Source: an uncultured Oscillospiraceae bacterium
GTDB lineage: Bacteria > Bacillota > Clostridia > Oscillospirales > Oscillospiraceae
DNA: 64,000 nucleotides
Direction: 5' to 3'
NCBI GenBank assembly: GCA_947627735.1
Contig: CANQXG010000001.1
Coordinates: 16,406 to 80,405, forward strand
Numbering within the stretch: position 1 is the stretch's first letter; each line of letters begins with the position of its first letter. Shown here in pieces: positions 12,276-24,198 of this stretch. The notes below the pieces were generated by a model. The model did not search any database. It saw nothing but the letters and a program-made list of their open reading frames with translations, and was not told the DNA's origin. Position numbers and translations under genes: made by a program.

Positions 12276-13167
12276 TTACCAAATCGTTCTTCCGCCGTCC
12301 AGCACCACCGTCGCGCCGGTCATGTAGGAGCTGGCGTCGGAGAGCATATACAGCACCGTCCCCACATACTCGTCCGGTCGGGACATCCGCCCCATGGGGA
12401 TGAGCTGTGATATCTTCTGCACGAACGCCGGGTCCTGGCCGTTCTCCAGGCTGGCCGGGCACAGGGTGTTGACCCGAACGCCCTTCTTCGCCCAGTAGAC
12501 CGCCAGATACTTCGTCAGCCCCATGATGCCGTGTTTCACCACGGAATAGGACACCGGCTTGACGATCTGCTGGTCCTCCGGGACCCCCTCCTTGCGGTAG
12601 ATGCTCTGGTTGGGCGCGATGATACCGTAATCGGAGGAGATGTTGATGATGACGCCCTTTCCCTGCTCCGCCATCACCTGGCCGAACACCTGGGCGCACA
12701 GGAGCGAACCCGTCAGGCCCACGGCGATGTCCTCGTTCCACATCTCCACGGGGAAGTTGTGGAACTGGATAGCCCCCAGGTTCTTGGACCCGCCCTCCAC
12801 CTTTGGGTTGTTGGCGGCGTTGTTGATGAGGCCGTCGATGTGCCCGTACTTTGAAAGCAGCGCGTCCCGGACCTGACACAGGGCGTCCCGGCTGGTGATA
12901 TCCGTCACGAACGTTTCTATGCGCGCGCCGGGATATGCCTTTTCCAGGTCGGCCTTCGTCCGCTCCATGCCGCCCGGGAATATGTCAAGCAGCACGGCCA
13001 CGCCGTCGCCGGACAGGATCGCCTCGGCGTGCTTCTTCCCCAGCAGTCCTCCGCCGCCGGTGACTATAAAGACCTTATCTCTGATCGAAAACAGCCGCTC
13101 CGCCGCGCCGCGGCCGGCTCTCTCTCTCTCTCTCTCTCTCTCTCGTATGGGTCGGATCGTCTTTCAT
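12276..13167 (-). CDS. PtmA-like short-chain dehydrogenase/reductase, phase-variable and out of frame (OFF) here
   Basis: The SDR reading frame runs from the stop at 12276 up through the Rossmann motif ('VFIVTGGGGLLGKKHAE'), 'LINNAANNPK' and the catalytic Y-x-x-x-K ('SYSVVKHG'). This frame has no ATG, GTG or TTG before the Rossmann motif. The only good start is the ATG at 13167, with AGAGG 7 nt upstream. From it the frame enters a 27-nt GA tract (13144-13118) and leaves in the wrong frame, stopping at TAA 13077-13075 after about 30 codons. Adding one GA unit or removing two would restore a ~297-residue enzyme. The track's 12276-13001 ORF begins at an internal GTG and lacks the cofactor site. 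Family assignment is strong; substrate (nonulosonate precursor) is inferred from the neighbours. Confidence 0.87.
13118..13144. repeat. (CT)13.5 dinucleotide tract in the 5' coding end of the SDR gene
   Basis: A pure 27-nt CT repeat on the plus strand, read as GA on the coding strand. It begins 23 nt after the ATG at 13167. With this length the start codon and the SDR frame are out of register by one base. Confidence 0.97.
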
Positions 13168-13257: not shown

Positions 13258-14352
<1,095 letters not shown>

Positions 14353-14407
14353 TGTTTTTTCTCCTTTTGATCTCAAATGTAATCTTTTGCAGACGTTTTC
14401 TTTTTGC

Positions 14408-15445
14408 CTAAAACGGAAGGTCCACCGATCTGTGTTCCTCCGACGCTTTTTTGGCGGCGCAGGCCATGCGCAGGCTCACGGCGCCCTCCTCCAATGTCAG
14501 CATATCCTGCCGGCGGCTCTTCACCGCCGCGAGGAACGCCTTCATCTCGTCCACGAACATCTGGTTGCGCTGGAAATCCGAAAACTCCTCCCGCGTTACC
14601 TGATCGCCCCGGGCCACCGTCACGCTCGCCCCCAGCAGGTCCGCCTCCGCCCAGCCGTTCTCCCATATCACCCGGCAGCACCGCCGGGGCGGATATTGGA
14701 AGAAGTCCGCGTGAGCGCTCACCGGGAAGGCCCCCAGGGGTCCGTCCATCCAATAGATGGCCTCGCAGTAGTCCTCCACGCTGAGCGCAAGGCAGCTGTT
14801 GGTCCCGCAGAAGGCCGTGACCGCCTTCGGCGCGCCAAATATCCACTGCAGGTAGTCCAGCTCGTGGATCTGCTGGTTCATGATAACGCCGCCGCCCTGG
14901 TCCTTCCGGGCCATGTATGTGTCGGCGTAGTTCTCATAGGTGTGCATGGTGGTCAGCCGCTCGCCGATCTCCGAGCGCACGGATATGATGGGACCAAATT
15001 CCCGGGACCGCACCAGCTCCCGCAGCCGCCGCAGGCAGGGGTGGAACCGGTTCTGGAACCCCACGAACACGATGCGGCCGCCGTCCTTCGCCGCCTGGAT
15101 CAGCTCGTCCACGCCCGCCATGTCATAGGATATGGGCTTTTCCAGGAACACGTCGCAGCCCGCCCGGACGGCCTTCAGGGCACAGGGGATGTGCTGGCTG
15201 GTGATGTTCGTCACATAGGCGACGTCCGGCCTCTGGGCCAGGGCCTCGTCCAGGTCGGAGAAGCTGCGGATGGCAAATGCGTCCTCCAGCCGGACCCCCT
15301 CCCGGATCTGCATCGTGTCGGAGAACGTCCGCTGCAGGCCCCGGACGCGGTAGGCCAGAAACTCCGCCTCATCGCCCAGATACGCCCGCAGATTGCGCAG
15401 ATGCCGCTGGCCGATGCTCCCCAGGCCGATCATCAGTATTTTCAT
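14408..15445 (-). CDS. Gfo/Idh/MocA-family sugar oxidoreductase
   Basis: A 345-residue NAD(P)-dependent oxidoreductase with N-terminal 'ILMIGLGSIGQRHLRNL' and the family's 'EKPIS' lysine motif. The real start is the ATG at 15445, which overlaps the upstream stop as ATGA; the track's longer ORF extends into the previous gene. Members act on the ring carbons of sugars or sugar nucleotides, and PtmF-type members are found in nonulosonate gene sets next to NeuB, NeuA and PtmA, as here. The exact substrate is not visible. Confidence 0.88.
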   Translation of the reverse strand: MKILMIGLGSIGQRHLRNLRAYLGDEAEFLAYRVRGLQRTFSDTMQIREGVRLEDAFAIRSFSDLDEALAQRPDVAYVTNITSQHIPCALKAVRAGCDVFLEKPISYDMAGVDELIQAAKDGGRIVFVGFQNRFHPCLRRLRELVRSREFGPIISVRSEIGERLTTMHTYENYADTYMARKDQGGGVIMNQQIHELDYLQWIFGAPKAVTAFCGTNSCLALSVEDYCEAIYWMDGPLGAFPVSAHADFFQYPPRRCCRVIWENGWAEADLLGASVTVARGDQVTREEFSDFQRNQMFVDEMKAFLAAVKSRRQDMLTLEEGAVSLRMACAAKKASEEHRSVDLPF

Positions 15446-16206
15446 GGCTGCTCCTTCTCCGCCTCGCACCGGCGCAGATACGCCATGATCTCGTTATCGA
15501 ACAGCGACACCGCCTCCGTCGTTTCCTCAAACTCCCGGATGCTGTCTATGTCGACGGTCTCCGGGACCTCGAATCCGATCATCCTCTCCCCGTGCAGCAG
15601 ATGGTGCTCAACGATGTATTCCGTTCGCAGCACATCCACATACCCGTCCGGGATATACATGGCCGGGAACCCCTGTCGCGGGCCGTTGGCCCGGTCCAGG
15701 GAGATGCCGTTGAACGCCTGATAATAGCCGTCCTCCGAGCGCCAGAACCACTTGAACGGGCACAGGTCCGTTCTGTGGGCCGAGCGCAGGGAATCCGCCG
15801 TGCTGTCGGCGGTCATCTGCCCGATGGCGCTGCGGATCACCGATATCTCCCGCAGCGGCGTGGTGGGCCGCAGATGGACCCAATACTCCGGCAGCACATC
15901 CTCGTGCTCGTCCAGCCAGTGGATGGCGTGGAGCATGAACTCCACATCCGTCGCCATGTTCCCCGCTATCTCCGCCGGGCGCAGGAAGGGCACGTCCGCC
16001 CCGTAGGACCTGGCGATCTGGGCGTACTGCTCCGAGTCGGTGGACACGATGACCCGCCGCACCTCCGGCGTCAGCTTGCCTGCCGCGATGCTGTACGCCA
16101 TGAGCGGGTGTCCCGCCAGGGGCTTGATATTCTTGTTCTTCACGCCCGTGGACCCGGACCGGGCCGGCACGATGGCATAGATCAGGCCCTTTTGGATAGG
16201 CTTCAT
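15442..16206 (-). CDS. neuA: CMP-nonulosonate (acylneuraminate) cytidylyltransferase
   Basis: A 254-residue cytidylyltransferase with the CTP-binding start 'IVPARSGSTGVKNKNI' followed by 'LAGHPLMAYSI', as in NeuA/PseF/LegF. It charges a nonulosonic acid with CMP to make the donor for the sialyltransferase-like protein at 17603-18592. The start at 16206 overlaps the previous stop (ATGA). The family is certain; whether the sugar is Neu5Ac, KDN, legionaminic or pseudaminic acid cannot be decided from sequence. Neighbours (a KdsC-type phosphatase and a PtmA-like SDR) argue for KDN- or legionaminate-type chemistry. Confidence 0.92.
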   Translation of the reverse strand: MKPIQKGLIYAIVPARSGSTGVKNKNIKPLAGHPLMAYSIAAGKLTPEVRRVIVSTDSEQYAQIARSYGADVPFLRPAEIAGNMATDVEFMLHAIHWLDEHEDVLPEYWVHLRPTTPLREISVIRSAIGQMTADSTADSLRSAHRTDLCPFKWFWRSEDGYYQAFNGISLDRANGPRQGFPAMYIPDGYVDVLRTEYIVEHHLLHGERMIGFEVPETVDIDSIREFEETTEAVSLFDNEIMAYLRRCEAEKEQP

Positions 16207-16694
16207 TTCCCGCTGTCCTCCCGACTGTTCAGAATTTCCCGGCACAGCTGGCGGATCACACCGCAGCCGCCGTCTTTCTCGGATACCCAGCCGCTTATGG
16301 CCAGCACCTCCGGCTCCGCGTCCCGCGGGCAGCCGCAGGCGCCCACCGCCTGCATCGCCGCCAGATCGTTGACGTCGTTGCCGATGAACATCGCCTCCTG
16401 GGGCGAGAAGCCGTTTTCCCCGCAGTAATCCAGGACGGCCTGCCGTTTATCCTCCACGGCGTGGAGAACGCCGATCTTCAGCTTCCGCGCCCGCTGCTCC
16501 ACGATGGGATTGACCTCCGTGGAGATGATAACCTGGCGGATGCCGGCCTCCCGGAGCAGCCGCACGCCCGTGCCGTCACCGCGATGGAAGACGGCCGACT
16601 CCTCGCCCGTCTCCGACACGATGACCCGGTTGTCCGTGAGCACCCCATCACAGTCGTAGATGAGGAGCCTGACCCTGGAAAAGTCCATGCTCAC
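16203..16694 (-). CDS. KdsC/YrbI-type HAD phosphatase
   Basis: A 163-residue HAD hydrolase with the aspartate motif 'YDCDGVLTDN' and motif III 'GNDVNDL', the size and sequence pattern of KDO-8-phosphate phosphatase. Beside a NeuB-type synthase it would dephosphorylate a nonulosonate-9-phosphate, as in KDN synthesis. That role is inference from family and context. The start may be the GTG at 16694 (GTGA overlap with the upstream stop) or the ATG two codons later; neither has a strong SD, so it is probably translationally coupled. Confidence 0.9.
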   Translation of the reverse strand: MSMDFSRVRLLIYDCDGVLTDNRVIVSETGEESAVFHRGDGTGVRLLREAGIRQVIISTEVNPIVEQRARKLKIGVLHAVEDKRQAVLDYCGENGFSPQEAMFIGNDVNDLAAMQAVGACGCPRDAEPEVLAISGWVSEKDGGCGVIRQLCREILNSREDSGK

Positions 16695-17569
16695 CGGCCC
16701 CGATATTTTAGCTTGTCCCGCTGCACCTGCTCGATGGGCAGGATCTCGCTGTCCTTATAGGTCAGCGCCTGCTGCACGTCGTGCAGGTCTTTTACCAGCT
16801 TTCTGAACTCGTCCGGCTCCAGGGAGGCTGCGTGGTCCGTCCCCTTCCAGGTCTTGTCCAGCGTATAGTGGCGCTCTATGACCTCCGCCCCCAGCGTATA
16901 GGCGGCGATATCCACCGCCGTGCCCAGATGGTGGCCGGAGAATCCGATCTTCTTCACCGTGCTGCCGAAGGTCTTTTTAAGCCTCGTCAGCTCCAGCAGG
17001 CACACGTCCCCGTAAGGCACCGGGTACCCGGAGGTGCAGTCGAAGATCACCAGGTCCTTGTTCCGCCCGCTTTTGACGAATAGGTCCACGATCTTCTCCT
17101 CCTCCTCGTGGGTGGTCATACCGAAGGAGAGCTGGACCTCGCCGCCGTAGTTGTCGCACAGCCACTGGAGCATGGCGAAGTTGTTGTTGCTGGCGGAGGG
17201 GATCTTGATGAACTGCGGCTCGATGGCGGCGATCTCCTTGGCGGAGGTCATGTCCCACACAGAGGTGGAATAGACGATACCGAACTGCTCGCACCAGGCC
17301 TTCAGCTGCCGGTGCTGCTCCGCCGTGAACTCCAGGAATTCCCGGTGCTCCCCGTAGGTCTTTCCGTAGGAATTGGCGGGATTGGGATGGGGCGCGTTAT
17401 ACTGCTCCGGGGTCAGCAGCTCCCGGTTGCAGCGCTTCTGAAACTTGATGGCGTCCGCCTTGCAATACAGCGCCGCCGTGGCGATCAGGTCCCGGGCGAT
17501 GGACATCTCGCCCTTGTGATTGCACCCCGCCTCGGCGATGATGAACGGTTTAGTGTAGGTCGTTTTCAT
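16691..17569 (-). CDS. neuB: NeuB-family nonulosonate synthase (catalytic domain only)
   Basis: It condenses phosphoenolpyruvate with a six-carbon sugar (or its phosphate) to give a nine-carbon acid. The protein has 292 residues with 'IIAEAGCNHKGEM', 'AIKFQKR', 'IKIPSASNNN' and 'SFGMTTHEEE'. It is shorter than usual NeuB (~340-350) and lacks the C-terminal antifreeze-like (SAF) domain. Synthases without that domain occur, but it is worth noting. A GGAGGA site lies 11 nt before the ATG. It heads the neuB-kdsC-neuA block, all translationally coupled. Confidence 0.92.
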   Translation of the reverse strand: MKTTYTKPFIIAEAGCNHKGEMSIARDLIATAALYCKADAIKFQKRCNRELLTPEQYNAPHPNPANSYGKTYGEHREFLEFTAEQHRQLKAWCEQFGIVYSTSVWDMTSAKEIAAIEPQFIKIPSASNNNFAMLQWLCDNYGGEVQLSFGMTTHEEEEKIVDLFVKSGRNKDLVIFDCTSGYPVPYGDVCLLELTRLKKTFGSTVKKIGFSGHHLGTAVDIAAYTLGAEVIERHYTLDKTWKGTDHAASLEPDEFRKLVKDLHDVQQALTYKDSEILPIEQVQRDKLKYRGR

Positions 17570-17602
17570 TTGATCTATCTTCCTCCGGTCTTATATAACT
17601 TG

Positions 17603-18592
17603 TCATAGGGCATTCTGTTGCGCCCTTCTCATCTCTCCGTCCTGCCATCGGAACCATTCCCGGGCCGGCACGTCAAACAGGGCCGTGGACGCGATCGCCG
17701 TGACACAGTCAAAGCTGACCCCGGCCAGACGGAACATCTCCGCCGGGATAGTCCGGTCAAGGACGACTACCCCCATGCCGGAATAGTCCGCCGCGTCCCG
17801 GGGATGGGGCTTGAGCATCACCGCATATCCCCGCGCTCTCAGCGCCCTCACGATATCCCGGTAGACGGCCAGCTGCTCCTCCTCGGTGTCCATCAGCCCG
17901 TCTTCCACGAATGGCTGTGTCAGCACCAGCGCCGTCTTTCCCTGGACCGGCGGCACCTCCGGCCTGCCGAACACATCCAAAAGGAGCTGTTTGTCCTCCG
18001 GCCTCAACGCGTCGAACAGGGGCTTTCGCGGCACCTCCACCAGCCGCTCCCGGGGCAGCTCCACGCCGTCCAGGTCGTTGACCTCGATCTCCCGGACCAG
18101 CCCGTCCTCCCCGAAGTACAGATACCCGATGTGGAACAGCCGCTTTATCAGCGCCTTCAGGCCCTTCTGAGGCAGCATATGGGCAAAGGGTCCGGTGGTG
18201 AGGATCTTGTAGCTGTCCAGCCCGTCCTCCACGATCCGGTAGGGCAGCCGCCGGTCCTTCATGTAATGGGCCATCCAGGTCCCGTCGTGGAAGATGTTCA
18301 CCTCGTCGTAGTCCTCAAACCGGAATCCCGCCGGGAAGCTTTTCTCGATGGCCGCCGCGCTTTTCCGGTGGTAGAACAGGGCGTGGTCTATCGCATTGGA
18401 AAAGACATACTCCTCCACGCCGCCTATGTACACCGTCCGGCGAAACAGCCCGCTTTCCTCGATCCTGCGGGCCAGCGCCGCCCCCTCCGGGATGTACCCA
18501 GTGATGAGGATATCCGCCTCCTGCCGGTCCACCAGCTGCTTCACGCAGGCGATCAGGGCGTGGTAATAGGTGGAGCATACGTAGAGCTTCAT
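17603..18592 (-). CDS. Sialyltransferase-like glycosyltransferase (GT52/GT38 type)
   Basis: A 329-residue protein with no hit I can name exactly, but with the signatures of bacterial sialyltransferases: an N-terminus 'MKLYVCSTYYHALIA' like GT52 proteins, a D/E-D/E-G motif in 'RIVEDGLDSY' and an HP motif in 'MLKPHPRD'. These motifs supply the base and bind CMP in that superfamily. Its place between neuB and a GlfT2-like gene supports transfer of the CMP-activated nonulosonate onto the glycan. It overlaps the previous gene by 4 nt (ATGA). Confidence is good for the fold and modest for the acceptor or linkage. Confidence 0.75.
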   Translation of the reverse strand: MKLYVCSTYYHALIACVKQLVDRQEADILITGYIPEGAALARRIEESGLFRRTVYIGGVEEYVFSNAIDHALFYHRKSAAAIEKSFPAGFRFEDYDEVNIFHDGTWMAHYMKDRRLPYRIVEDGLDSYKILTTGPFAHMLPQKGLKALIKRLFHIGYLYFGEDGLVREIEVNDLDGVELPRERLVEVPRKPLFDALRPEDKQLLLDVFGRPEVPPVQGKTALVLTQPFVEDGLMDTEEEQLAVYRDIVRALRARGYAVMLKPHPRDAADYSGMGVVVLDRTIPAEMFRLAGVSFDCVTAIASTALFDVPAREWFRWQDGEMRRAQQNAL

Positions 18593-20121
18593 ATCCCCAG
18601 ATACCTCTCCCAGAACTCCAAACTCGTCAGCTCTCCCAGCTGGGCCTGATACGCCGCCCGCACCTTTTTATAGCCCCGGACGAACGCCCCCATCACCGGC
18701 AGCAGCCGGATCGGGTCCGTCAGGATGCTGGCCAGGCGGCTCTTGCCCGGCTTTTTCATCTCCGCCAGAAGCGCCTCATTCAGCGCCTCGCCGTCTGTTT
18801 CCAGGAAGAGATCCGGCCCACGCAGAAAGTCCCGGTACGCCCGCAGCAAAAAACCTATCGCCCGTGTGTCCCCCAGCAGCACCGCTTTCCCCGCCCCCCG
18901 GATCAGCTTCATCAAACCGGGCCATACGCCCGCGCCGCTGCCGTGGAGTGCACTAGTCACCAGCTCGTTGCGCTTGATGTAATACTCCAGATGGACGCTG
19001 TACTTCTCGTCGAACCGCCGATGCCACACGCCGATGCCGTTCATCAGCAAAAAGGCAGCATCCATCCGCAGGCCGTACTCCACATCGTCTATTTTGATGA
19101 ACAGCGGCAGCGGCAGCCCGATCATATCGACCGCTCCCAGAGGGATACAGCAATACCACCAAGCGTTATACTGCACGCGGCGCTCTCTCTCATTCGCCAA
19201 AAGAGCTGCCGGACCCGTCAGTTCCAGGCCCTGTCCCATCGGCCTTAAGCGGCCCTTTTGAAACAGCGCTCCCGCCTCATACTGCACCGTGGGCGCATCC
19301 TCCAGGAGCATCTGCCCGCCGACGCACAGGGGCCTGTCCGACGGCTTGGCATACCGCAGCAGCTGCACCGTCTTTACCAGCGCCTCCGTTTCAAAGGAGA
19401 TGTCGTCGTCCATGAACAGGACGTGGGTGTATGTGTCCCGCCGGCGATATGCCTCCATGAGGCCCCGGGTAAAACCCCCGCTGCCGCCGCAGTTCCGGTT
19501 GGGGAACAGCTTCACATGGTCATCCTCCGCCAGCGTCAGCGTCCGGCCGTTGTCCACCACGAACAGGTCCAGCGCCTCCCGGATGGGGCAGTTTTCATCC
19601 CCCCACACCGTCTGGCGCAGCTGGGCCAGGTTCCGGGCCACATAGTCCTCCCGGCGGTAGGTGCACATCACTGCCGCCACCTTCACACCATTCACAGGCG
19701 GCAGGTCAGACTCCCATTGGCCCCGGAGAAACCGGACAGTCCCGTCCGCCGCCTGCACCGTCAGGTACAGCATCCCCTCCGCCGGCAGCGGCGCCAGGTC
19801 TATGGCGGGCAGATGAACCTCGCCGGACACGCGCTTTTCAAGCAGCGTCCTCTCCCCGTCCTGCGTGAACAGACGCACCGAGAGCAGGACTTCGCCCTCT
19901 ACCTCCGCCCGGAGGGATACGCCGGTCACATGGGTGTACCGCAGGTACTTGGGATAGAAAAAGCCGTTGAAGTAGCTGTCGAAGGTCACGACGCCTCCCG
20001 CGGGGATTGTCATTCCATCCCGGTCACAGGTGGCTGCGTCGTCTGCGTGGTAGTAGAGCGCGGACCGGTCCGTCCTGTCCGGGCCGGGAAGGATGATGCG
20101 CGACAATACCGTTCCCATCAT
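18589..20121 (-). CDS. GlfT2-like galactofuranosyltransferase
   Basis: A 510-residue protein with a beta-rich N-terminal domain (about 1-150) and a GT2 domain with 'VMCTYRREDYV', 'GGSGGFTRG', 'FMDDDISF', 'IKIDDVEYGLR' and 'GIGVWHRR'. This matches the N-terminal half of the 916-residue fusion in the same locus, without the DUF115 part. Presumed donor is UDP-Galf made by glf at 9140-10234. The first ATG (20121) overlaps the upstream stop; the second ATG three bases later has better spacing to GGGAGG, so it may be the true start. Confidence 0.85.
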   Translation of the reverse strand: MMGTVLSRIILPGPDRTDRSALYYHADDAATCDRDGMTIPAGGVVTFDSYFNGFFYPKYLRYTHVTGVSLRAEVEGEVLLSVRLFTQDGERTLLEKRVSGEVHLPAIDLAPLPAEGMLYLTVQAADGTVRFLRGQWESDLPPVNGVKVAAVMCTYRREDYVARNLAQLRQTVWGDENCPIREALDLFVVDNGRTLTLAEDDHVKLFPNRNCGGSGGFTRGLMEAYRRRDTYTHVLFMDDDISFETEALVKTVQLLRYAKPSDRPLCVGGQMLLEDAPTVQYEAGALFQKGRLRPMGQGLELTGPAALLANERERRVQYNAWWYCCIPLGAVDMIGLPLPLFIKIDDVEYGLRMDAAFLLMNGIGVWHRRFDEKYSVHLEYYIKRNELVTSALHGSGAGVWPGLMKLIRGAGKAVLLGDTRAIGFLLRAYRDFLRGPDLFLETDGEALNEALLAEMKKPGKSRLASILTDPIRLLPVMGAFVRGYKKVRAAYQAQLGELTSLEFWERYLGI

Positions 20122-20930
20122 GTCCTCCCGATAACGCCCTTTACTGCTGCCCGGCGCTTCGTCCCCGGGGGCAGTAGCACGTTCAGCGCCCGGCGCTTGT
20201 AATACGCCCCGCCGGCATAGAAATGCGCCCGGGGCAGCTCCAGTGTCCGCAGCTCATGCCGCCGGTATGTGGCGTACACCCCCAGCAGCCGCTCCGCCAG
20301 GTACCCATCCACCCGGGGTCCCGGGTCCGATACCTCGCCGTCAAAGGCCGCCAGCAGCGGGAACAGCCAGGCGCAGTAGTCCTGAAACACGTCCCGGCCC
20401 ATGATGAAGATGTTGCCGAAGAACTGCACCGTGCCGCCCAGATATGTGTCCAGGGCCGCCGCCATCTCCGGATGCGTCTGGCGGACCAGTTCCTCCGCCA
20501 GGGCCAGGTCTGCGGCCCGATGATGCCGGGCGTAATGGTCCCGCACGGGCACACGCATATCCTCCCCCATGGGTAGGATCATGTCGTATCGCCCGATCAG
20601 CGCCGCAAAGCGGTCATAGCCCAGCGCCTCCAGATCCGGATCCCGCCGGATGATGTAGGGCCGCTTGGCGTCCGTGTCCGGGTAAAGATACCGCCGGTAG
20701 TGGAAAAAGCCGTACCGGTCCGCCCGGACGTTCTTCCAAGCCCAGTATTGGCCGGTGAGTTCGCAGTAGGAGCGGTTTTTATCGGAGATGTTCTCCCCCT
20801 CGTCGTCATGGGCAAAGCCGGGGAACCGCTCTCCCGCCAGCGCCGCGCCCACCTGCAGGGGCCGCAGCAGCGGGTGCGCCGGCACCGCCTGCCGCTCATG
20901 GCAGCAGATGAACAGCTTTATGTCGGACAA
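20118..20930 (-). CDS. DUF4422 capsular polysaccharide biosynthesis protein
   Basis: A 270-residue protein with 'IKLFICCHERQAVP', 'ENISDKNRSYCELTGQYWAW' and 'DRYGFFHYRRYLYP', the pattern of DUF4422 proteins in capsule clusters, probably glycosyltransferases. It starts with TTG at 20930, which has GGAGAG 7 nt upstream, only 3 nt after the stop of the recombinase-like gene. So the recombinase-like genes and the glycan genes belong to one transcript. Confidence 0.85.
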   Translation of the reverse strand: MSDIKLFICCHERQAVPAHPLLRPLQVGAALAGERFPGFAHDDEGENISDKNRSYCELTGQYWAWKNVRADRYGFFHYRRYLYPDTDAKRPYIIRRDPDLEALGYDRFAALIGRYDMILPMGEDMRVPVRDHYARHHRAADLALAEELVRQTHPEMAAALDTYLGGTVQFFGNIFIMGRDVFQDYCAWLFPLLAAFDGEVSDPGPRVDGYLAERLLGVYATYRRHELRTLELPRAHFYAGGAYYKRRALNVLLPPGTKRRAAVKGVIGRT

Positions 20931-20933
20931 TGC

Positions 20934-21749
20934 TCAGCTCTCCCACCCATGCTCCGTCTGCTCCTGCTCTGCTCGTTCTATCATCAGCCGCTCCACAGTC
21001 TGCGCTGTTATCTCAACCCGGGTCTGCTCGTACAGCTTCCTTAGCGTGCGGACACAGGCCTTGCCGGCCCCGAACCCTGTCGCCTTGCTCACCGCCTTGA
21101 TGTGCAGCCGCACGGTCTCCGCCCGCAGCGGCTCCCCGCCCCTGCCCACGAATATCCGCCCGCCGCGGACGCCATTGTGCAGGGCATAGTCCAAAAGCTC
21201 CTCCCGCAGGCTGTCCGGCAGGCGGACAGCGGTGGTCCCGTCCCGCACCGCCTCCACCGTCAGGGCCAGGAAGTCCGCCATCTCCATGTCCGTGCAGGCG
21301 AAGGCCCGCATGGCCAGATAGGCCAGGGGCTTTCCCATCGCCCGCGCCGTCGTCAGCAGGTGCAGGTATTCCTCCCGGGTGAGCGCCGCCGGGGACGGCT
21401 CCTGTTTCCCGATATAGCTGGTGAGCTGATAGCTCTCGTAGCCCCTGTAGCGCAAAAAGGCGTTGCAAGCACTGGTGAGCATGTTCACATGGGCGGCGGA
21501 ATAGGTGTCTGTCAGGCTCTCCACCCAGTTGGCCAGCGTATCCTCCCGGACCCGCTTGTCCGCCGGCAGGGCGTCGTAAAAGGCCAGCAGCGCCCTGCGG
21601 TAGCGGGCGACCGTACTGGGGCTGAGGTCCGCCTTCAGCCGCCCGACAAAGTCCTCGATATCCGACCGCCCCATCTGAAAGCCGGCCTCCGCCGCCGCAC
21701 CGGCGCGGCCCCGCGCCGCACGCTCCCGGACGGGAAATATCTCCCGCAT
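20934..21749 (-). CDS. Recombinase-like protein without catalytic residues, copy 1 (third in operon)
   Basis: 271 residues with a tyrosine-recombinase layout: a core-binding domain (about 20-130; 'LSPSTVARYRRALLAFYDALP') and a catalytic-type domain after 'LTREEYLHLLTTARAMGK'. Catalytic residues are gone: the first Arg site (TGxRxSE) reads 'CTDMEMAD', the HxLR motif reads 'RTLRKLY', and there is no GH motif or nucleophilic Tyr before the C-terminus. I chose the ATG at 21749, 5 nt after the upstream stop, with GGAGGTG at 8 nt. It may bind DNA or a partner recombinase rather than cut DNA. Confidence 0.78.
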   Translation of the reverse strand: MREIFPVRERAARGRAGAAAEAGFQMGRSDIEDFVGRLKADLSPSTVARYRRALLAFYDALPADKRVREDTLANWVESLTDTYSAAHVNMLTSACNAFLRYRGYESYQLTSYIGKQEPSPAALTREEYLHLLTTARAMGKPLAYLAMRAFACTDMEMADFLALTVEAVRDGTTAVRLPDSLREELLDYALHNGVRGGRIFVGRGGEPLRAETVRLHIKAVSKATGFGAGKACVRTLRKLYEQTRVEITAQTVERLMIERAEQEQTEHGWES

Positions 21750-21754
21750 CCTTT

Positions 21755-22213
21755 TTACACCTCCCGGTCCGCCAGTTCGTTCATGAGCTGCTCCGCCTCG
21801 CCGGCGGCCATGGCCTCGGCCTCCGCCCGCGCCGCCAGATACAGCCGCTGCAGGGCCTTGGGCCGGCACATGCCCTCGCCCAGGCCCGCCGCCGCGCCCA
21901 GGCCGCGCAGGATCGCGGACACCCGCTGCACGTCCAGAGGCCGGCCGCTGCGGGTGGCAAATACCGGCCCGGACAGGATGTTCTTCCGGGCGGCATAGGC
22001 CAGCAGCTCACTTTTAAGGCCCTCGGGCAGCGGAACATCTCTTACTCGGCCCGCCCGGACGGCCTCCACCGTCAGCACCGGCAGTTCGGACACGGAGATG
22101 CCCGTCAGGGCAAACACCTTCACCAGCAGGTAAGCCGGCTCCCGGCCCAAAACCCTGGCCGTGTCCAGCAGATGGAGATACTCCGCCCGGGTAAGCTCTT
22201 CCGTCCCCGCCAT
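21755..22213 (-). CDS. Recombinase-like protein without catalytic residues, short copy 2
   Basis: 152 residues that cover only the catalytic-type domain, from 'LTRAEYLHLLDTARVLG' on; the core-binding domain is missing. The Arg I site reads 'TGISVSEL' and the HxLR motif reads 'KALQRLY', so it should not cut DNA. The ATG at 22213 is 4 nt past the stop of the previous gene and has a weak SD, so coupling is likely. It could be a decayed copy or a trimmed regulator; the open frame and its conserved place in the run of three favour the latter. Confidence 0.7.
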   Translation of the reverse strand: MAGTEELTRAEYLHLLDTARVLGREPAYLLVKVFALTGISVSELPVLTVEAVRAGRVRDVPLPEGLKSELLAYAARKNILSGPVFATRSGRPLDVQRVSAILRGLGAAAGLGEGMCRPKALQRLYLAARAEAEAMAAGEAEQLMNELADREV

Positions 22214-22217
22214 GGCG

Positions 22218-23033
22218 TCACACGTCCCAGCCGCAGAGGGCCTGTTCCCGTTCAAGCAGCGCGTCCATGGCCTCCTCGTCCCGCAGCTCCGCCAGCGTGT
22301 TTTGATATAGCTTCTGCAGGCTCCGGGGCGTACCCTTGCCGCCCGTCAGACCCGCCGCCAGGCTCACTTCCCGCAGGCACTTGGCAACGCCCGCTTCCTG
22401 GGGCGCCGTGCCGGCCCGGGTGCCAAAGATCATCCCCGTCCGGCCGTGGAAGGCGGCATAGCTCAGCAGTTCCCGGCACAGGCACGGCGGCAGACGGACC
22501 GCCCTGGTCCAGCATATGACCTCCCCCGCGCGCACCGAATCCACGGTGAGAAGGCCCAGGTCCCGCACCGGGATGCCCGTCACGGCGAACAGCTTGATGA
22601 GCAGATAGGACCGCTCCTTCCGCAGCGCTTTCGCCGCGGCCAGCAGGCGGTGATACTCCTCCCGGGTCACGGCGGGCAGGCTCGTCTTGCCCGGCGCATA
22701 CCGCCCGCTCCGCCGGTACTGCTCCGCGCCCATATACTGCAGCCAGCGGTCGCATACGGCGCCGAAGTAGTTCAGCGTGTTGGGGGAATACCCCTCGCCC
22801 GCCAGCTCTTCCAGCCACAGGTCCACGGTCCCCCGGCGGATGCGCTTGTCCTCCGGAAGCCACTCATGGAGCATCCGCAGTGTCCGGTCATACCGCATCG
22901 CGGTGCCCGGCTGGCTCCGCTCGCCCAGCGCGGCGATGAAGCGTCCGATGTCCTCTTCCCCCATCCGGACGCCCTCGTCCTGGACGGGCCGCGCCGCCCG
23001 GCGCGGGGAGGGCTGCCGCGCAAGCTCCTGCAT
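22218..23033 (-). CDS. Recombinase-like protein without catalytic residues, copy 3 (first gene of the glycan operon)
   Basis: 271 residues with both recombinase domains ('SQPGTAMRYDRTLRMLHEWLP', then 'VTREEYHRLLAAAKALRKE'). Arg I reads 'TGIPVRDL', the HxLR motif reads 'RSLQKLY', and the Tyr helix is absent. The start at 23033 has AAGGAG 8 nt upstream. It is the first gene after the promoter in the invertible segment, about 70 nt downstream of the predicted transcription start. First-gene position recalls the Upx regulators of Bacteroides capsule operons, although the protein family differs; a regulatory role is inference. Confidence 0.78.
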   Translation of the reverse strand: MQELARQPSPRRAARPVQDEGVRMGEEDIGRFIAALGERSQPGTAMRYDRTLRMLHEWLPEDKRIRRGTVDLWLEELAGEGYSPNTLNYFGAVCDRWLQYMGAEQYRRSGRYAPGKTSLPAVTREEYHRLLAAAKALRKERSYLLIKLFAVTGIPVRDLGLLTVDSVRAGEVICWTRAVRLPPCLCRELLSYAAFHGRTGMIFGTRAGTAPQEAGVAKCLREVSLAAGLTGGKGTPRSLQKLYQNTLAELRDEEAMDALLEREQALCGWDV

Positions 23034-23066: not shown

Positions 23067-23084
23067 CAAAATAAAGCGTCTGTC
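23067..23084 (+). repeat. Left inverted-repeat arm (18 bp)
   Basis: CAAAATAAAGCGTCTGTC is the exact reverse complement of the right arm at 23329-23346. It lies between the promoter and the first gene's ribosome-binding site, so it is part of the 5' leader. Confidence 0.97.
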
Positions 23085-23110
23085 CAAAAATACTGTACAC
23101 AACATTAGAA

Positions 23111-23139
23111 ATAATAACACATTTCTATATCATTGACAA
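23111..23139 (-). promoter_or_regulatory. Sigma-A promoter inside the invertible segment, pointing into the glycan operon
   Basis: On the minus strand TTGTCA (-35) is followed by exactly 17 nt and TATTAT (-10), each 5 of 6 to consensus. Transcription would start near 23104, cross the left repeat arm and reach the ATG at 23033. The flanking DNA is AT-rich compared with the region. Confidence 0.82.
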
Positions 23140-23201
23140 GTGGAAAACAGCGCAATAACAGCGCCTGATTGTCTGATTTGGAAAATACGGGCATGAACAC
23201 A

Positions 23202-23232
23202 GGGCCGTTGACAAAATCGCTTTCAACGGCCC
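23202..23232. other. Hairpin without T-run inside the invertible segment
   Basis: GGGCCGTTGA and TCAACGGCCC form a 10-bp stem with an 11-nt loop. No T-run follows on either strand, so it is not a standard terminator; it could be a protein-binding palindrome or part of a small transcript. Confidence 0.6.
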
Positions 23233-23261
23233 GCTTCAGTGCGCTCTTAAGGCCCGATCTG

Positions 23262-23295
23262 CCGCCCCGCAAGAAGTCTTGCGGGGCGGTTTTTT
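23262..23295 (+). terminator. Intrinsic terminator inside the invertible segment (plus-strand orientation)
   Basis: CCGCCCCGCAAGA pairs with TCTTGCGGGGCGG and is followed by six T on the plus strand. No plus-strand gene ends here. If the segment flips, this terminator would face minus-strand read-through from the recombinase gene into the operon. Confidence 0.85.
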
Positions 23296-23328
23296 GCTCT
23301 GATCTCCATGAGATATCTGCTCATGATA

Positions 23329-23346
23329 GACAGACGCTTTATTTTG
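23329..23346 (+). repeat. Right inverted-repeat arm (18 bp)
   Basis: GACAGACGCTTTATTTTG, exact reverse complement of the left arm. It ends 9 bp before the stop codon of the recombinase gene (23356). Confidence 0.97.
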
Positions 23347-23355
23347 TTTGCATCG

Positions 23356-24198
23356 CTAACTGACCAGCCCCAGCCGGTCCAGGGTCCGGGCGTGCTCCAT
23401 GCCGGTGGTGATGAGGTATATCCGCGTCGTGTTTATGCTGGAGTGGCCCAGCACGTCCGCCAGCTTCACGATGTCCCGGCAGGCCCGGTAGAACACCGTG
23501 GCGAACAGGTGCCGCAGGTTGTGGGGAAACACCTTCCCCGTTTCCACCCCCGCCAGTGTACATACCGCCTTCATCTCCGCCCATATCTGCCGCCGGCTCA
23601 GGCTCTTTCCGCTTCTGGTGAGAAAGATCTCGCCGGAGGCGATTTTGTTTTTCCTGGCGTATTTCAAAAGCTTCCGGCACAGCTTCCCCGGCAGCATGAT
23701 GGTCCGTATTTTCCCCTTCAGGGCGATCTCCGCCCTGCCCATTTGGGCTGCTTCCACCGTTATGTACCGCACTTCCGACACCCGGATGCCGGTGCCGCAG
23801 ATGGTCTCCATGAGCAGGGCCAGACGCGATTTTCCGCCGTCCTTCGCGGCGGCCACCAGCTTTTCATACTCCGCCTTGGTCAGCTCCCGGCCCGGGTCCC
23901 GGAAGGCCCGGCGCTGGAGCCGCAGGGCCTTGACGCGGCAGTCCTCCCAGCCACAGAACTTGAAAAACGCATTCACCGCCGCCAGCTTGGCGTTCACCGT
24001 CGCCGGGGCATATCCCCGGGCCATAAGCTGTTCCTTCCATGCCACCGCCAGGTCCTTAGTGACCTCCCGCCCGTCCAGCCATGCGGCGAACCCGCGGACG
24101 CTCCGCAGATACGCCTCGACGGTGCCCTCCGCCCGCTCGTCACCGCGAAGGTACGTAGCAAATGCCTCAACGCTCCGGATATCCATCTCTCTACTCAT
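23356..24198 (-). CDS. Catalytically complete tyrosine recombinase (candidate invertase)
   Basis: 280 residues with a core-binding domain ('GTVEAYLRSVRGFAAWL') and an intact catalytic domain: Arg I in 'GTGIRVSEV', 'HNLRHLFAT' (HxLR), 'LGHSSINTT' and the nucleophilic Tyr in 'TTRIYL'. The start at 24198 has AGGAGG 9 nt upstream; the track's longer version runs into untranslated DNA. It sits directly next to the 18-bp inverted repeat and on the same strand as the operon, as for known promoter invertases. A XerC/D or integron-type housekeeping role is less likely given the context. AT-rich DNA at 24226-24240 may hold its promoter, but I see no clear -35. Confidence 0.9.
   Translation of the reverse strand: MSREMDIRSVEAFATYLRGDERAEGTVEAYLRSVRGFAAWLDGREVTKDLAVAWKEQLMARGYAPATVNAKLAAVNAFFKFCGWEDCRVKALRLQRRAFRDPGRELTKAEYEKLVAAAKDGGKSRLALLMETICGTGIRVSEVRYITVEAAQMGRAEIALKGKIRTIMLPGKLCRKLLKYARKNKIASGEIFLTRSGKSLSRRQIWAEMKAVCTLAGVETGKVFPHNLRHLFATVFYRACRDIVKLADVLGHSSINTTRIYLITTGMEHARTLDRLGLVS

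Follow-up and report, generated by a model that had tools for sequence, protein, structure and literature searches.

Why should a strong intrinsic terminator lie inside an invertible segment of DNA, on a strand on which no gene ends? We examined this question in a window of 64,000 nt from an uncultured Oscillospiraceae bacterium (GCA_947627735.1, contig CANQXG010000001.1, positions 16,406-80,405 of the forward strand), in which the terminator-like hairpin at 23262-23295 shares a short segment with a promoter that points the other way (Table 1). Judging from sequence, we regard it as quite probable that this segment works as a two-part flip switch in which promoter and terminator are opposed, so that one would be in use while the other is not.

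The hairpin and the segment that carries it

The arms of the hairpin, CCGCCCCGCAAGA-AG-TCTTGCGGGGCGG (23262-23274 and 23277-23289), pair at 13 of 13 positions and are followed by a run of six T at 23290-23295, the end of which is 33 bp from the recombinase-side repeat arm. The fold energy of 23262-23289 is -29.2 kcal/mol (z = -5.3), a stability reached by none of 200 shuffled sequences. The hairpin ranks third among the hairpin-plus-T sites of the whole window, and in a consensus scan of 20-27 kb the site 23262-23295 was the top-scoring terminator-like site on the plus strand. The preliminary description of this DNA had proposed a strong plus-strand hairpin followed by T6, and it was exact in its coordinates as well. 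On the opposite strand, A6 precedes the hairpin and no T-tract follows it, so the terminator signal would be one-directional. That no gene ends at this plus-strand terminator, as had also been claimed, agrees with the ORF list of the window: no genuine plus-strand gene 5' of the hairpin ends there, the plus-strand ORFs upstream being antisense shadows of minus-strand genes. A remnant plus-strand gene was considered and rejected. A search of Rfam matched no family at the hairpin or the switch locus. As the segment now lies, the hairpin is predicted to be idle, with nothing on its strand to stop.

Table 1 Coordinates of the switch, its recombinase and the switched operon within the window.
Feature	Position	Strand	Basis or remark
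Glycan genes (DUF4422, glycosyltransferases, others)	13258..20930	-	Apparently same operon; extent judged from spacing and strand
Operon gene 3, truncated recombinase-like	20934..21749	-	Protein comparison
Operon gene 2, truncated recombinase-like	21755..22255	-	Protein comparison
Operon gene 1, recombinase-like without catalytic tail	22218..23033	-	Protein comparison
Inverted repeat arm, operon side, CAAAATAAAGCGTCTGTC	23067..23084		Partial match to family site
Invertible segment (244 bp), assembled as ON	23085..23328		Repeats, promoter, inverted homologues in related genomes
Promoter TTGTCA-17-TATTAT, extended -10	23111..23139	-	Consensus match; points at operon
Central palindrome GGGCCGTTGA-N11-TCAACGGCCC	23202..23232		Lies between promoter and terminator; conserved in relatives
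Intrinsic terminator	23262..23295	+	13-bp stem and T6; in relatives, same place and direction relative to promoter
Inverted repeat arm, recombinase side, GACAGACGCTTTATTTTG	23329..23346		Perfect repeat; compared with family site
Tyrosine recombinase, 280 aa, presumed inverter	23356..24198	-	Phage_integrase 3e-25; R, HxxR, H, Y present

The inverted repeats that flank the segment are perfect over 18 of 18 bp and lie 244 bp apart; the 18-bp sequence occurs exactly twice in the 2.36-Mb assembly, as the two segment arms. Promoters, both in the window and in its relatives, were called as sigma-70 consensus matches. The segment promoter faces the operon, and the assembled orientation therefore reads ON. 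Beyond what the preliminary description had contained (as is the fimS precedent discussed below), there is a second, central palindrome, which in the window has no good T-tail. Some families of relatives have T-tails on one or both sides of it, and it may be a second, sometimes two-way terminator in some families, or a protein site. Inverted homologues were found in related genomes, and the exact window copy is represented by one assembly; for that copy, we infer both the inversion and the role of the adjacent recombinase as the inverter.

The stop codon of the recombinase gene is 9 bp from the repeat, and the gene has no terminator of its own. The NCBIfam models nearest to the protein are XerA/XerD, and DNA-invertase models match it weakly (5e-7, far under the cut-off). 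The switched operon is apparently a surface-sugar or glycan operon that opens with three truncated recombinase-like genes. This tandem trio (20934-23033, minus strand) lacks the HxxR-H-Y catalytic tail; runs of three truncated recombinase-like genes also stand behind the switch in the close relatives L059-L063, L098, L099, L101 and L102, with a run of four at L057, and their products may act on the switch as accessory factors or as inhibitors. The same operon also contains two (GA)n tracts, one of 44 bp at 14258-14301, inside the start of ORF 13258-14376 (which reads EREREREREREREREREG), and one of 26 bp at 13119-13144, just 5' of ORF 12276-13001. Slippage in such tracts could shift the reading frame, so that genes controlled by the flip switch would be subject to a further type of phase variation.

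Related switches, their orientation and their terminators

When the genus was searched at the protein level, 22 of 35 genomes had matches to the recombinase, with up to 15 per genome. A scan of named genomes supplied 80 further loci, mostly from uncultured Oscillospiraceae and many from rabbit gut, and also yielded some loci from Intestinimonas, Agathobaculum, Butyricicoccus and Oscillibacter. Once duplicates and short ends had been removed, 101 loci were left. Scores for the best repeat starting close to the recombinase stop reached 30 in these loci, compared with a 95th percentile of 9 and a maximum of 13 in shuffles. We carried 91 loci from Oscillospiraceae and relatives forward, including nine with low repeat scores that we retained because they closely resemble better-scoring loci. 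Across the related loci, stop codon and repeat are separated by a median of 9 bp, and an interrupted palindrome resembling ACARAAT-N4-ATTYTGT is common to many of the repeats.

The survey brought several variants to light. Genomes G013 and G033 hold 15 and 8 recombinase matches, respectively. Most of the matches retrieved come with inverted repeats and a segment of their own, so one genome may carry many switches that work independently. At L064, L065 and L068, a third repeat copy (GACACGGAATAAAGA) lies 5 bp past the recombinase stop as a direct repeat of the next copy, and a strong promoter-like site between the two faces the recombinase gene. The same type of switch stands before helicase-like ORFs (MGIELY..NEKAYRAVRKML..PTGTGKS) at L077, L078, L079, L083 and L092, which suggests phase-variable helicases, perhaps defence genes. 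Switches before genes for secreted surface-like proteins (MTKRMLSLLLALVMTLSLCVPALA) occur at L075, L080-L082, L085, L086, L088-L091, L094 and L095, and in these the hairpin terminator is mostly missing.

Orientation was assigned by the promoter, the -10 box of which, in well-scored segments, lies mostly 25-56 bp from the arm that it faces. By this rule, 61 of the 91 segments were OFF, 20 were ON and 10 were uncalled. Several homologous segments were found lying in both directions: L064 (ON) and L065 (OFF) are 99.6% identical over 245 bp, and further opposite-orientation pairs are L062/L063 (91% over 276 bp), L091/L095 (94% over 236 bp) and L085/L088 (97% over 176 bp). Such segments are evidently natural inversions. 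Relative to the window, the homologous segments of L060, L061, L063, L098 and L099 are reversed, with the promoter turned back toward the recombinase and the terminator standing before the operon and facing it. This is the arrangement that the preliminary description had expected inversion to produce, namely a terminator between the recombinase gene and the operon. The window's own genome holds a paralogous switch (L057; recombinase 92% identical) in the OFF state, where a hairpin of -44.5 kcal/mol followed by T6 is directed at the operon of that locus.

Among the 81 oriented loci, a strict detector found 36 with a terminator opposite to the promoter and 8 with one on the promoter's strand, compared with 2.3 and 2.5 in shuffles; at -18 kcal/mol, the counts were 19 and 0. 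Because loci of one segment family are not independent, we also counted by family, which gave 17 with opposite terminators only, 1 with same-strand terminators only, 4 mixed and 15 with none (binomial p = 7e-5). A bulge-tolerant detector restricted to set stem lengths gave an unclear count (19 loci opposite only, 12 same-strand only and 6 with both); it missed odd-length stems and was rejected, and its replacement scanned every stem length. At -15 kcal/mol, this all-length detector found opposite terminators in 43 loci and same-strand ones in 14 (2.0 and 1.3 in shuffles), corresponding to 18 versus 4 families.

The position of the terminator within the segment divides these counts further. With a split into distal and central sites that was chosen after the data were seen, promoter-distal terminators were opposite in 33 loci and on the same strand in none at -15 kcal/mol (37 to 1 at -12 kcal/mol), and central ones were opposite in 10 and on the same strand in 14. 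The pattern is that of two elements, a putative distal one-way terminator facing away from the promoter and the central palindrome. It also supports the double switch of promoter and terminator put forward in the preliminary description, which had the geometry right, distal terminators opposing the promoter in 33 of 33 loci. In 14-20 loci, the central palindrome resembles a terminator that reads in the ON direction; with a central terminator active in that direction, recombinase transcripts would stop in both orientations there. Among the 81 oriented loci, the strict detector found no terminator in 38, and the looser detector found none in 26 at -12 kcal/mol. With a third to half of the loci lacking a detected terminator, the design is common, not universal.

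We also compared the stem itself among nine close relatives. It is paired in 96.6% of cells, whereas sliding the partner by 1-3 columns leaves 28-53% paired, and 4 of the 13 pairs are altered on both sides. The stem in the window differs from those of the nine relatives in sequence and is the same in place and direction. These compensatory changes lend support to selection on the hairpin.

A proposed mechanism and its alternatives

We propose that the adjacent tyrosine recombinase would invert the 244-bp segment that the 18-bp repeats enclose. In the ON orientation, the promoter would drive the minus-strand operon, and the terminator, being on the opposite strand, would have nothing to stop; a transcript from the recombinase gene would meet the tail-less strand of the hairpin and could continue into the operon. 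In the OFF orientation, the promoter would face back to the recombinase gene, toward its 3' end, and the terminator would become the first stop signal past the recombinase, ahead of the operon. In the 91 loci, no forward terminator lies between the recombinase stop and the segment, so the recombinase transcript is expected to run into the segment, and the OFF terminator would end such transcripts and thereby keep the operon silent. Only in OFF would the recombinase mRNA gain a defined end. The account draws on what the sequences themselves display, namely the repeats, the promoter and terminator as called, their opposition, the recurrence in relatives and the inverted homologues; from these we infer termination in the cell.

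Is operon silence what the terminator was selected for? Its main role might instead be to control the recombinase mRNA, as for fimE, a reading to which we give a little less than even weight. The OFF terminator would then set the 3' end of the recombinase mRNA and the reversed promoter would make antisense RNA, and the ON message would enter the operon; the recombinase level would depend on orientation, and so would the switching rate. The layout of fimS is the same, and the terminator there alters fimE mRNA stability (PMC9993118, PMC2784873). In the present loci, only a few bases lie between the recombinase stop and the segment, no other terminator is found, and the promoters of the 61 OFF loci face into the recombinase gene. 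However, at 17 of the 91 loci the recombinase end carries a terminator that faces the antisense direction and would hold antisense RNA in check, and some families have a central terminator that would act in ON too. Control of the recombinase message is compatible with insulation of the operon, and sequence cannot separate the two; we treat it as a serious companion hypothesis. Tentatively, and with more doubt than belief, we can join both into a general statement: an opposed promoter and intrinsic terminator would be a standard module of the recombinase-linked switches in Oscillospiraceae and relatives, its orientation setting both operon silence and the fate of the recombinase transcript, which would bias the flipping rate. 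On this reading, the recombinase transcript would end at the terminator and encounter antisense RNA in OFF, and would pass into the operon in ON.

The remaining explanations dispense with the recombinase transcript, or with termination. The terminator could stop wrong-way transcripts from the promoter region in either orientation, with the recombinase transcript hardly involved, since the distal terminator is always found on the rear side of the promoter, pointing away from it, and in the window a weak plus-strand promoter-like site overlaps the main promoter. Yet divergent promoter-like sites (score >= 9.5) are no commoner than expected, at 7% versus 10% in shuffles, and we consider this explanation unlikely. 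The hairpin could instead serve recombination or protein binding, for instance as an accessory site used by the recombinase or by a partner, and be no terminator at all; this would fit with palindromes being usual as protein sites and with the sequence conservation of the central palindrome across relatives. The T-tract, however, is on the flank that faces away from the promoter, the hairpin is kept although its stem sequence varies between families, and the stem shows compensatory changes, which makes a protein site very improbable. As no gene now ends on the strand of the hairpin, it might also be a product of chance or the leftover terminator of an older gene arrangement, but 36 opposite-promoter terminators were observed where about 2 were expected, in at least 17 segment families, and we give this idea almost no credence.

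If the two-part switch is real, its OFF state would be a true OFF; otherwise, the switch merely turns its promoter away. The opposed pair recurs in gut Clostridia, whose phase variation has received less attention than that of Bacteroides. Surveys of invertons score promoters, and counting the terminator as well would alter which genes are predicted to depend on orientation, the recombinase included. For the design of an insulated genetic toggle, the segment could also offer a compact model taken from nature.

Comparison with known switches

The closest precedent is fimS of E. coli, which, as described in PMC9993118 and PMC2784873, carries the fim promoter together with a Rho-dependent terminator influencing fimE mRNA, both connected or disconnected by inversion; the same papers credit the detachable fimE terminator to Joyce and Dorman 2002 and Hinde et al. 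2005. On that description, each switch is a short segment between inverted repeats directly past a tyrosine recombinase gene, and each combines an operon promoter with a terminator placed, in our case by prediction, to act on the recombinase transcript only in OFF. The two differ in that the fimS terminator is Rho-dependent, whereas the present one is an intrinsic hairpin with T6. The present switch also has longer repeats, a glycan operon and an XerA/XerD-like Clostridia recombinase that is not of the FimB/FimE type.

Two switches of C. difficile share part of this logic. At cwpV, an intrinsic terminator blocks the gene only in OFF and the promoter lies outside the segment (PMC2784873). The likeness, again within Clostridia, is the OFF-only intrinsic terminator, which here is read from the sequence layout; in contrast, the cwpV terminator is formed at a repeat junction, whereas ours is whole in both orientations and shares the segment with the promoter. 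The flagellar switch uses Rho-mediated termination, with no promoter activity in the segment (PMC5386303, PMC8844915). It resembles the present switch in the orientation-dependent termination of a transcript entering the segment, here predicted, and differs in its reliance on Rho and its lack of a promoter, where the present segment combines an intrinsic terminator with one.

A 2025 survey (PMC11892184) measured flipping of Clostridia invertons with tyrosine recombinases, including in Intestinimonas. The survey covers motifs and flipping and leaves terminators to future work; its inverton group 139 with invertase group 35 (e.g., in Intestinimonas butyriciproducens) has an inverton of about 230 bp beside a clostridial tyrosine recombinase, which we liken to the present switch by layout. 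Among the papers searched, none used the phrases invertible, phase-variable, detachable or flippable terminator. The principle of an opposed promoter and terminator is known from fimS and partly from cwpV; what is new here is its recurrence across a family.
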